NCBI RefSeq assembly: GCF_000971235.1
Contig: NZ_BBMB01000011.1
Coordinates: 252,547-316,546, forward strand
Length of the DNA: 64,000 nt
DNA from: Demequina subtropica
GTDB taxonomy: Bacteria > Actinomycetota > Actinomycetes > Actinomycetales > Demequinaceae
Direction: 5' to 3'
Shown: positions 57,223-61,545 of the stretch, piece by piece
How the letters are laid out: each line of letters begins with the position of its first letter
Position numbering within the stretch: the stretch's first letter is position 1
Program-made: the position numbers and the translations under genes
Notes under the pieces: generated by a model
What the model was told of the DNA's origin: nothing
The model's database searches: none
Seen by the model: the letters and a program-made list of their open reading frames with translations, nothing else

Positions 57223-57382
57223 TTCCGTTTGTCGGTGATGGACGGGAGTCGTTGTCAGACCCCCGCGCGACACTGTTCTGGTGGCGCCCGGATGCGGTGG
57301 GGCAGTCTTCACAGGGAAGGCGGTACCGTCCACATGACACGCCGAGGTGTCCACAGGCTTTGCACAGAGAACTCCACAAGAC

Positions 57383-57429
57383 CACAACATCTAGGGGCTG
57401 GGCTTCAAAAAGGCCCCCATATCTTGTTG
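57383..57429 (+). promoter_or_regulatory. Two NrdR boxes
   Basis: CACAACATCTAGGGG (57383) and CCCCATATCTTGTTG (57415) are 32 bases apart, about three helical turns. Both resemble the tandem NrdR sites before actinobacterial nrd genes (core ACAxxATxTxG). NrdR is a repressor responsive to dATP/ATP. Confidence 0.65.
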
Positions 57430-57455: not shown

Positions 57456-57581
57456 CGGATAGCGCCTCGTGCTGACGACGCGGGTGGACCACCCCGGAAT
57501 CCGCCGCCATCCGAGCGCCAAGTCACCACCATGCTGCGCGGCCTGGGGAGGGTCACGCAGGGCACCCGCGAGGAGAGCATC

Positions 57582-60527
57582 GTGACGATCACCGAGAACA
57601 CCGCCGGCGCGACCACCGAGGGCGTCGCCGTGGCGCGCCCGGGCATCCATGTGACCAAGCGCGACGGCACGCGCGAGCCCTACAACGCGGACCGCATCAA
57701 CAAGGCGATCGAACGCGCGGCGCACGGCCTTCCCGATCAGATCTCGATGACCACGCAGATCGCGTCCGAGCTCGCGATCACGCTCTTCGACGGCATCACC
57801 ACGGAGCAGCTCGACGAGGCCGCGATCGGTGTGGCGGTCCAGAACGTCAAGGACGACCCTCAGTTCGACATCGTCGCTGCGAGGCTGCTGCGCAAGGTGA
57901 TCTACAAGAGGGTGCTCGGCGGCTACGACACCGAGCTCGAGCTGTCGCTCCTGCACCAGGCGCGCTTCCCGGGCTACATCCGCGACGCGGTCGAGGACGG
58001 CCTGCTCGACACGCGGCTCACCGAGCTGTTCGACCTCGACGCGCTCGCGGCGCGGCTGGACCACACGCGCGACGACAACCTCCGGTACATCGGCACCGTG
58101 ACCATGCGCAACCGGTACATGATCACCGACCGCCACGGGAAGGCGCTCGAGGTCCCGCAGTACTTCTGGATGCGCGTCGCGATGGGCCTGTCGCTCAACG
58201 AGGCCGACCCGACCGGCGCGGCGCTCCTCTTCTACGACAAGATCTCCACGCTTGAGTACCTGCCCGCCGGTTCGACGCTCGTCAACGCGGGCACGTCCTA
58301 CCCGCAGCTGTCGAACTGCTTCGTCATGCAGATGGAGGACGACATCGAGCACATCGCGAAGTCGGTGCGCGACGTCATGTGGCTGACCAAGGGCACGGGC
58401 GGCATCGGGCTGTCGGTGACGAAGCTGCGTGCCGAGGGCTCCCCGATCCGCTCGAACAACACCACGTCGACCGGCCCGATCCCGTTCATGCACACCATCG
58501 ACTCGACGCTGCGCGCCGTGTCGCGCGGCGGCAAGAAGTTCGGCGCGCTGGCGTTCTACATGGAGAACTGGCACCTCGATTTCCACCAGTTCCTCGATCT
58601 CCGTCAGAACTCGGGCGACCCGTACCGTCGGACGCGCACGGCCAACACCGCCGTGTGGATCTCCGACGAGTTCATGAAGCGCGTCGCCACCGACGGCGAC
58701 TGGTACCTGTTCGACCCCGCCGAGACCCCTGACCTGGTGGAGCTGGTGGGCTCGGCCTTCTCCGCGCGCTACGCCGAGTACATCGCGCTCGCGGAGGCGG
58801 GCCGCATGCGCACCTTCAAGAAGATGAAGGCGCGCGAGCAGTACAAGTCGATCCTGGTGATGCTGCAGACCACCGCCCACCCGTGGCTCACGTGGAAGGA
58901 CACCATCAACCTGCGTGCCCTCAACACCAACACGGGCACCATCCACCTCTCCAACCTCTGCACGGAGATCTGCCTGCCGCAGGACCGCGAGAACATCGCC
59001 GTCTGCAACCTCGCGTCGATCAACCTGCCGGAGCACCTGGTCGACGGCAAGATCGACTGGGACCGCATGAAGGACTCGGTGCGGCTCGCGGTCCGCCAGC
59101 TCGACAACCTGGTGGACATCACGCTGTCTTCCGTGCCCGAGTCCGAGCATGCGAACAGCGAGAACCGTGCGATCGGGCTCGGCGTGATGGGCTACACCGA
59201 CATCACGGAGCGCCTCGGGCTCGCGTACGAGTCCGAGGAGGCGTACGCGCTGATCGACGAGATCGTCGAGTTCGTGTCCTTCCACGCGATCGACGCCTCC
59301 GCGGACCTCGCACGCGAGCGCGGCTCGTACGCGAACTTCGAGGGCTCCGGCTGGTCGCAGGGCAAGGTCCCCTTCGACACCATCGCGGAGACCGAGGCGG
59401 ACCGCGGCGTCCCCATCACGGTCGACCGGACGATGCGTCAGGACTGGGCCGCGATGCGCGAGAAGGTTGCGGGCGGCATCCGCAACGCGACGCTCATGGC
59501 CGTCGCTCCCACCGCCTCGATCGGCCTCGTCGCCGGCGTCACGCCCGGATTCGACCCGCAGTTCTCGCAGATCTTCTCGCGCGCCACCAGCTCCGGGAAG
59601 TTCCTCGAGGTCAACCGGAACCTGGTCAAGGACCTCCAGGAGCTCGGACTGTGGGAGTCCGTGCGCGACCGCCTGCTCGAGGTCCAAGGCGACCTGTCGC
59701 AGATCGACGAGGTCCCGCAGCACCTCAAGGACGTCTACAAGACGTCGTTCCAGCTGCCGCCGCAGGCGTTCATCGAGGTCGCGGCGCGCGCCCAGAAGTG
59801 GATCGACCAGGCCATCAGCCGCAACATCTACCTCGAGGACCGCGACGTCGAGGGGATGATGAACCTCTACGCGGCGGCGTGGGAGAAGGGCGTGAAGACC
59901 ACGTACTACCTCCACATGAAGCCGCGCCACACCGCCGAGCAGTCGACGGTGCGCGTCAACAAGACCGAGAAGATCAACAGCACCGGCAACGCCGCGGGCC
60001 GGCCCTCCGCCGGCGGCTCGACGGGGCCCGCGCGCAAGGGCTTCGGCGCCGCACGCAAGGGCTTCGGGGCGGCCAAGGCGGCCGCGGTGCCCGCGGACGA
60101 TGCGACGGCCGCCCAGCCGCCCGCCTCGCCGGCACCGGGCACGGCGCCCGCGGCACCCGCATCGTCCCCGGTGCCCGAGGCCGCAGCGGTCCAGCGCCCC
60201 GCGGCTCGCGGCTTCGGCGCGGTCAAGGCTGCCGAGCCGGCGGCGGCCACCGCGCCGATCGAGACGGTCGCGCCGACCGCGCACCCGGGTCCGTCCCTGG
60301 CTCCCGCGTCGGTGCTGTCCTCGATCGCCGCTCAGGCCTTCGCCACCTCGCCGGCCGATCAGCCCGAGGTCCCGCCCACCTCGCTTCCCGAGGGCGTCCA
60401 GATGCCCGAGGGGGCCCGCCAGCTCGAGATGGTCGAGTCCACGGGATCGGGGGACACGGAGATGGTGGGCGGCGTCGCGTGCCCCGTGGACCCGATGGAG
60501 CGCCTCCAGTGCGAGTCGTGCCAGTGA
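57582..60527 (+). CDS. nrdA: Ribonucleotide reductase alpha subunit
   Basis: Class I alpha chain (981 aa) that makes deoxynucleotides from diphosphates. An ATP cone near residues 20-110 is followed by the catalytic barrel with SNCFVM and NLCTEI cysteines. The radical-path tyrosines TTYYLHM and the terminal CESC (Cys977, Cys980) are present. AGGAG lies 6 bases before the GTG, preferred over an upstream ATG without a ribosome site. Between core and CESC lies an unusual 160-residue Ala/Pro linker. Confidence 0.95.
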   Translation: MTITENTAGATTEGVAVARPGIHVTKRDGTREPYNADRINKAIERAAHGLPDQISMTTQIASELAITLFDGITTEQLDEAAIGVAVQNVKDDPQFDIVAARLLRKVIYKRVLGGYDTELELSLLHQARFPGYIRDAVEDGLLDTRLTELFDLDALAARLDHTRDDNLRYIGTVTMRNRYMITDRHGKALEVPQYFWMRVAMGLSLNEADPTGAALLFYDKISTLEYLPAGSTLVNAGTSYPQLSNCFVMQMEDDIEHIAKSVRDVMWLTKGTGGIGLSVTKLRAEGSPIRSNNTTSTGPIPFMHTIDSTLRAVSRGGKKFGALAFYMENWHLDFHQFLDLRQNSGDPYRRTRTANTAVWISDEFMKRVATDGDWYLFDPAETPDLVELVGSAFSARYAEYIALAEAGRMRTFKKMKAREQYKSILVMLQTTAHPWLTWKDTINLRALNTNTGTIHLSNLCTEICLPQDRENIAVCNLASINLPEHLVDGKIDWDRMKDSVRLAVRQLDNLVDITLSSVPESEHANSENRAIGLGVMGYTDITERLGLAYESEEAYALIDEIVEFVSFHAIDASADLARERGSYANFEGSGWSQGKVPFDTIAETEADRGVPITVDRTMRQDWAAMREKVAGGIRNATLMAVAPTASIGLVAGVTPGFDPQFSQIFSRATSSGKFLEVNRNLVKDLQELGLWESVRDRLLEVQGDLSQIDEVPQHLKDVYKTSFQLPPQAFIEVAARAQKWIDQAISRNIYLEDRDVEGMMNLYAAAWEKGVKTTYYLHMKPRHTAEQSTVRVNKTEKINSTGNAAGRPSAGGSTGPARKGFGAARKGFGAAKAAAVPADDATAAQPPASPAPGTAPAAPASSPVPEAAAVQRPAARGFGAVKAAEPAAATAPIETVAPTAHPGPSLAPASVLSSIAAQAFATSPADQPEVPPTSLPEGVQMPEGARQLEMVESTGSGDTEMVGGVACPVDPMERLQCESCQ

Positions 60528-60555: not shown

Positions 60556-61545
60556 ATGGGAATCCTCGGAACCGGCGTGCAGGACGGGCTGCTGCTCAAG
60601 CCGATCACCTACCCGTGGGCGATGGAGCTCTACAACCAGGCGGTCGCGAACACCTGGTTCCCCAACGAGATCCAGCTGGGCGAGGACCTCGCGGACTTCA
60701 AGCGCATGACGGAGGAGGAGAAGCACGCCATCACCTATCTGATGTCGTACTTCAACCCCAACGAGCTGCTGGTCAACAAGGCGCTCGCCTTCGGCGTGTA
60801 CCCCTACATCAACGCACCCGAGGCGCACCTGTACCTCGCGAAGCAGATGTGGGAGGAGGCCAACCACTGCATGTCGTTCGAGTACGTCCTCGAGACGTTC
60901 CCGATCGACCGCGAGGCGGCCTACGAGTCCCACGTCACGGTGCCGTCGATGGCGGCCAAGGAGGAGTTCGAGGTCCGCTTCATCCGGAGGATGACCGAGG
61001 AGACGCTCGACATCACCACCACGGAGGGCAAGAGGGACTTCATCCGCAACCTCGTGGCGTACAACATCATCCTCGAGGGCATCTGGTTCTACTCGGGCTT
61101 CATGGTCGCCCTGTCCTTCCGCCAGCGGAACCTGCTGCGGAACTTCGGCTCGCTCATGGACTGGATCATCCGCGACGAGTCGCTGCACCTGCAGTTCGGC
61201 ATCAACCTCATCCTCACGGTGCTCGAGGAGAACGAGGACCTCCAGGACCCCGACTTCGCGGAGGAGATCCGCCAGATGATCCTCGGCGCGGTCGCGATGG
61301 AGGAGCAGTACAACCGCGACCTCCTGCCGACCGGCATCCTGGGCCTCAACGCCGACTACGTGAACCAGTACGTCAAGTACCTCGCGGACCGCAGGCTGGA
61401 GGAGCTGGGCTTCGATGCGCATTACAATGTGTCGAATCCCGCCAAGTGGATGGCCACGGCGAACGACACCCTTCAGCTGGTGAACTTCTTCGAGGCCACG
61501 AACACGTCGTACGAGGTCAACGCCCAGGCGACCAAGCAGCCGTAG
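60556..61545 (+). CDS. nrdB: Ribonucleotide reductase beta subunit, class Ic-like
   Basis: Metal-cofactor chain (329 aa). Ligands are Glu70, Glu101, His104, Glu174, Glu208 and His211, in NELLVN, WEEANH, LEGIW and DESLH. The radical-tyrosine place is Phe108. In Chlamydia trachomatis NrdB the corresponding residues are 89, 120, 123, 193, 227, 230 and Phe127, each exactly 19 higher. A Mn/Fe cofactor is therefore predicted, not observed. AGGAG lies 7 bases ahead of the ATG. It is read with nrdA. Confidence 0.95.
   Translation: MGILGTGVQDGLLLKPITYPWAMELYNQAVANTWFPNEIQLGEDLADFKRMTEEEKHAITYLMSYFNPNELLVNKALAFGVYPYINAPEAHLYLAKQMWEEANHCMSFEYVLETFPIDREAAYESHVTVPSMAAKEEFEVRFIRRMTEETLDITTTEGKRDFIRNLVAYNIILEGIWFYSGFMVALSFRQRNLLRNFGSLMDWIIRDESLHLQFGINLILTVLEENEDLQDPDFAEEIRQMILGAVAMEEQYNRDLLPTGILGLNADYVNQYVKYLADRRLEELGFDAHYNVSNPAKWMATANDTLQLVNFFEATNTSYEVNAQATKQP

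Follow-up and report, generated by a model that had tools for sequence, protein, structure and literature searches.

An nrdAB pair and its upstream region in Demequina subtropica

The window, that is, the whole stretch of 64,000 nucleotides that was analysed, contains an nrdB gene and, adjoining it on the upstream side, the gene of its partner subunit NrdA (Table 1). The nrdB frame is full-length, opening with an ATG at 60556 and closing with a TAG that ends at 61545. Its product scored 251.9 bits against the Pfam model Ribonuc_red_sm and 393.5 bits against the NCBIfam beta-subunit model PRK09614.1-5, for which the cut-off is 237, and the copy in D. gelatinilytica is 99% identical to it. Translation of nrdA more likely begins at the GTG at 57582 than at position 57531. 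Between the barrel domain and the CESCQ tail, residues ~826-980 of NrdA form a long linker that is rich in Ala and Pro and in which KGFGA motifs recur. The NrdR-box-like pair ahead of nrdA is also found, at an offset of 31-32 bp, upstream of nrdA in many relatives, and an NrdR gene is present in the same Demequina genome; NrdR would be expected to bind this pair.

Table 1. Features of the nrdAB locus, in window coordinates
Feature	Position	Strand	Basis
NrdR-box-like site pair, CCACAACATCTAGGGG ... CCCCCATATCTTGTTG, ~32 bp apart, upstream of nrdA	57382..57429	+	conservation
nrdA, partner R1 (alpha): one ATP cone, barrel domain, C-terminal CESCQ tail	57531..60527	+	Pfam, NCBIfam, sequence
nrdB, class Ic-type R2 (beta) subunit, 329 aa	60556..61545	+	Pfam, NCBIfam, closest PDB match = C. 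trachomatis NrdB
Trp34 = C. trachomatis W51 (electron relay)	60655..60657	+	alignment; W51 role PMC4118035
Glu70 (GAG), first metal ligand = C. trachomatis E89; Asp in classes Ia, Ib	60763..60765	+	alignment
Ligands E101..H104 = C. trachomatis E120, H123	60856..60867	+	alignment
Phe108 (TTC), radical-tyrosine position = C. trachomatis F127	60877..60879	+	codon, alignment
Glu174 ligand = C. trachomatis E193	61075..61077	+	alignment
Trp203 at C. trachomatis Y222 position (activation relay); clade-specific substitution	61162..61164	+	alignment
Ligands E208..H211 = C. trachomatis E227, H230	61177..61188	+	alignment
Tyr319, C-terminal radical-transfer tyrosine = C. trachomatis Y338	61510..61512	+	alignment

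The metal site of NrdB carries a Phe/Glu pair

The beta subunits of class I ribonucleotide reductases are distinguished by the residues at the radical position and at the first metal ligand, which are Tyr/Asp in classes Ia and Ib, Phe/Glu in class Ic and Tyr/Glu in class Id (2021 review, PMC8463856). The phmmer alignment of NrdB with C. trachomatis NrdB (1SYY) has one 2-residue insertion near residue 49 and is gap-free thereafter. The first-pass annotation of this DNA had claimed that seven site residues match the Chlamydia protein with a single offset of 19, and all seven pairs were recovered in this alignment (E70/E89, E101/E120, H104/H123, F108/F127, E174/E193, E208/E227 and H211/H230). The replacement of the radical tyrosine by Phe108, which falls on F127 and is invariant in the clade, and that of the first-ligand Asp by Glu70, which falls on E89, were both borne out. 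The WEEA..H...F.Y pattern, claimed to be kept as well, held in part: EEA-x-H-x3-F-x-Y is common to both proteins, and C. trachomatis has Phe at the place of the leading W99.

The residues E70 and F108 and the other ligands were identical in 82/82 close cellular homologues of the alignment and, wherever the sequence covers these sites, in 30 homologues from viral contigs. Among all the aligned R2 rows, Phe or Leu pairs with Glu and Tyr pairs with Asp, the exception being the class Id-type rows with Tyr/Glu. NrdB has the features of R2c, namely a redox-inert residue, Phe, at the radical position, Glu as the first ligand, five further ligands, Tyr319 and a partner NrdA; in place of the radical Tyr and Asp first ligand of classes Ia and Ib it has Phe and Glu. 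Class Id, which is Tyr/Glu, was ruled out by the Phe at 108. Three actinobacterial R2 rows (L122, L170 and L171) have Leu at the radical position with Glu as the first ligand and make up a separate Ic-like group.

The AlphaFold model of NrdB is of moderate quality (mean pLDDT 74.9, metals absent from the model) because the prediction input consisted of clade members only (22 rows). When it was searched for fold relatives, C. trachomatis NrdB filled the first 13 places among the PDB matches (TM ~0.76, 37% identity), the R2 of Saccharopolyspora erythraea came next, and class Ia proteins ranked clearly lower; by sequence also, the closest PDB relatives were C. trachomatis NrdB and then S. erythraea R2. 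The Phe/Glu pair, together with these nearest solved relatives in sequence and fold, supported the Chlamydia-type class Ic active site that had been proposed from the letters of the DNA, and the structural model that had been named as a check on it pointed the same way. The likeness to C. trachomatis NrdB (1SYY, 4D8F and 4M1I) extends over the six ligands, the Phe, the equivalents of Trp51, Asp226 and Tyr338, and the fold; the two proteins differ in that only 37% of the residues are identical, Tyr222 of the one is Trp203 of the other, and the loop before the Phe reads T-H-T in C. trachomatis versus C-M-S in Demequina.

A tryptophan occupies the position of the relay tyrosine

In the Chlamydia enzyme, Tyr222, which is conserved among R2c, mediates together with Trp51 the one-electron reduction of Mn(IV)/Fe(IV) (PMC4118035). 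This feature of R2c was not found in the Demequina clade, where all members covering the position have Trp203 (82 cellular rows, 27 viral rows and three further genomes, without exception), and this counts against the class Ic reading. Tyr222 is a reported feature of R2c that lies outside the usual definition, which is made by the Phe/Glu pair and the metal centre. The Tyr is kept at this position in the Ic-like rows outside the clade, among them those of S. erythraea, of a halophilic archaeon and of distant actinobacteria. Elsewhere among the aligned rows, Trp at the 203 position occurs only in 9DWS with its plasmid relative L162 and in a set of actinobacterial NrdB rows (L105-L120) that we take to be the Streptomyces-type class Ia R2. 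The latter resemble the Demequina protein in this Trp and differ from it in their Asp/Tyr site, which makes them tyrosyl-radical enzymes, and in being only 33-36% identical. A tryptophan at 203 could carry the activation electron as well. A description of the Trp203 variant or of viral copies of this NrdB was not found in the open-access literature.

Distribution among actinobacterial genomes and viral contigs

The 47 Demequinaceae genomes (G000-G046), mostly of one genus, present a patchwork of loss or exchange: class Ic-type NrdB is encoded in 37/47, of which 27 are without class Ib NrdF and 10 have it, and 8/47 have NrdF only. The class II NrdJ was over the cut-off in one genome of the family (G012). 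In the high-quality, near-complete genomes of D. oxidasica (G017, L026) and Demequina sp. NBRC 110053 (G028, L028), none of NrdF, NrdJ (over the cut-off) and NrdD was found, and the class Ic-type enzyme is the only ribonucleotide reductase of classes I-III found in them; for this reason, Demequina NrdB should be functional. The same NrdB is common in Demequinaceae, in the Clavibacter family (131/299 genomes, as counted from the match list) and in the relatives of Cellulomonas and Nocardioides. Two contigs titled Acidobacteria and Saccharimonadia (L042 and L074) carry an NrdB that is 85-87% identical and are probably misassigned actinobacterial contigs. A fragmented nrdB copy with a stop codon in a genome of a related family (G701:C1:3690127-3690670) is apparently in decay.

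Full or nearly full matches to the Demequina-type NrdB were also found on 31 contigs of IMG/VR (L192-L222), with 66-81% identity and the same Phe/Glu pair and Trp203 where these are covered. Four of these contigs were examined for their gene content. Genes for terminase, head or tail proteins are present on L195, L206 and L192, the first two of which have lysis genes as well; on L215 there are genes for recombination and lysis, and the matches to tail genes are weak. We read these as contigs of tailed phages. Among the isolated phages in the collection, none has an NrdB of >60% identity.

Phylogeny of the Phe/Glu site

The nearest neighbours of the clade of Demequina-type NrdB are proteins of f46 genomes with 44% identity. 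In the tree from all columns, the clade and these neighbours joined the rows of Chlamydia, S. erythraea, haloarchaea and the Leu/Glu group at a support of only 87/87. Without the eight site columns, the tree showed a three-way fork at which the Chlamydia-type rows, the Streptomyces-type Ia rows and the clade itself part; this and the modest support count against the class Ic reading. The phylogeny proposed in the first-pass annotation as a check thus placed NrdB with the Ic-like rows when all columns were used, and left it at a fork beside actinobacterial class Ia when the site columns were removed. Derivation from class Ia of the E. coli/6ZJK type was rejected (p-AU 0.007). Because the reference rows of classes Id and Ib are few and sit on long branches, no weight was given to where they fall. 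Phyla other than actinobacteria are represented by plasmid, phage and PDB sequences only. One Acinetobacter row with Asp/Tyr is nested within the Ic-like group in the all-column tree, which suggests a change back to a tyrosine enzyme; the R2 rows with Asp/Tyr amid this group come from Acinetobacter plasmid or phage records (L124 and L160).

The origin of the site can be read in another way, with no bearing on function, if the Phe/Glu pair of the clade arose independently from an actinobacterial class Ia enzyme of the Streptomyces type with its Asp/Tyr site and Trp203. We regard this origin as possible yet rather doubtful. Trp203 is common to the clade and the Streptomyces-type Ia rows and is absent from every other Ic-like row, and the best tree without the eight site columns unites these two groups, although with a support of only 59/4. 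Against this stand the 87/87 grouping with the Ic-like rows over all columns, the test without the site columns, which does not reject one common clade of Ic rows (p-AU 0.45) and likewise allows the grouping with Streptomyces-type Ia, and the NrdA fragments, which are slightly closer to the Ic-type partners of f19 (42-43%) than to those of the Streptomyces type (32-41%). The fuller proposal, that the actinobacterial and phage clade is a second, independent Phe/Glu metal-radical R2 lineage derived from class Ia in which the Trp carries the activation electron, is held a shade more tentatively still. The site of NrdB, as judged from its residues, is of class Ic type, and the trees fit one origin or two.

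Proposed function and alternative readings

NrdB very probably serves as the R2 subunit in a ribonucleotide reductase of class Ic type that is aerobic, works with NrdA and uses an oxidant, probably Mn/Fe, in place of a Tyr. By analogy with C. trachomatis, from which the identity of the Mn/Fe pair, its oxidation states and the function of the relay in the Demequina protein are inferred, the ligand sets E70/E101/H104 and E174/E208/H211 would hold a two-metal centre, with site 1 most likely taken by Mn and site 2 by Fe. Mn(II)/Fe(II) would react with O2 to give Mn(IV)/Fe(IV) (PMC8463856, PMC4118035), which would gain one electron through Trp203 and Trp34, in the place of the Tyr222 and Trp51 of Chlamydia, and so become a stable Mn(IV)/Fe(III). 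The latter would substitute for the tyrosyl radical that Phe108 cannot form, and in each turnover the oxidizing equivalent would pass from it to Tyr319 and on to the active-site cysteine of NrdA.

The metal assignment has one competitor, a Phe/Glu site with a metal-based oxidant other than Mn/Fe, such as a superoxide-activated dimanganese centre like that of class Id or a diiron centre. Ligands do not reveal the metal, the coordination sphere being alike across the types (PMC4118035), and the Demequina clade differs from Chlamydia near the site at C105, M106 and W203; nevertheless, class Id is Tyr/Glu by definition (PMC8463856) and the Tyr/Glu rows 6SF4, L163 and L180 sit elsewhere in the tree, and we consider this reading improbable. 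Far less credible is the view that NrdB is a class Ia protein whose codon 108 was misread in sequencing, or that the gene is a decayed copy. A single base separates Phe (TTC) from Tyr (TAC); yet the second diagnostic change, Glu70, is present too, the frame is full-length, and in G017 and G028 no ribonucleotide reductase other than this one was found. Phe108 is not a sequencing error, because E70 and F108 are invariant in the 82 cellular and 30 viral-contig homologues, and this invariance in >100 homologues ruled out the error at codon 108 that had been named as refuting class Ic, and a decayed gene with it. Equally negligible is the reading by which the protein is no reductase subunit but an R2-like ligand-binding oxidase (R2lox). 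R2lox proteins are likewise without the radical tyrosine and have a Glu first ligand and a Mn/Fe centre (PMC3824934, PMC4118035), but the R2lox models scored far under their cut-offs for NrdB (81.7 vs 194), the C-terminal Tyr319 is present and nrdA lies next to the gene, by which R2lox was ruled out. The class Ic-type reading stands as the preferred one.

Known relatives and significance

The S. erythraea R2, which has been crystallised (6Y2N), is likewise actinobacterial with a Phe/Glu site; unlike Demequina NrdB, to which it is ~35% identical, it has Tyr at the 222 position and falls on the Chlamydia branch. A sequence of the Clavibacter family (L187), which we take to be the NrdB of Tropheryma whipplei, is 85% identical to Demequina NrdB and has the same site including Trp203; T. 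whipplei differs from Demequina in being a host-restricted pathogen with a reduced genome. This actinobacterium is listed as class Ic (2014 review, PMC4009431), and Actinobacteria are mentioned near R2c in earlier trees (PMC3824934). Because of the listing of T. whipplei, the copies in the Clavibacter family and the Phe/Glu pair of 6Y2N, the finding of a class Ic-type enzyme in Demequina is correct but ordinary in kind, the type being known, including in actinobacteria. Its presentation in the first-pass annotation as a special example in a free-living actinobacterium was overstated, the enzyme being widespread in actinobacteria with the T. whipplei and S. erythraea cases already known.

To our knowledge, what is understood in detail of the class Ic mechanism comes from one enzyme, that of an obligate intracellular pathogen. 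The present clade supplies harmless and cultivable organisms, some with genomes in which the Ic-type enzyme is the only ribonucleotide reductase found, together with sister species that have class Ib instead or additionally; its activation relay also carries a natural exchange of Tyr for Trp. With this clade it becomes practical to study how general Mn/Fe use is, at what cost it comes when Fe or Mn is limiting, and whether the site had one origin or several.
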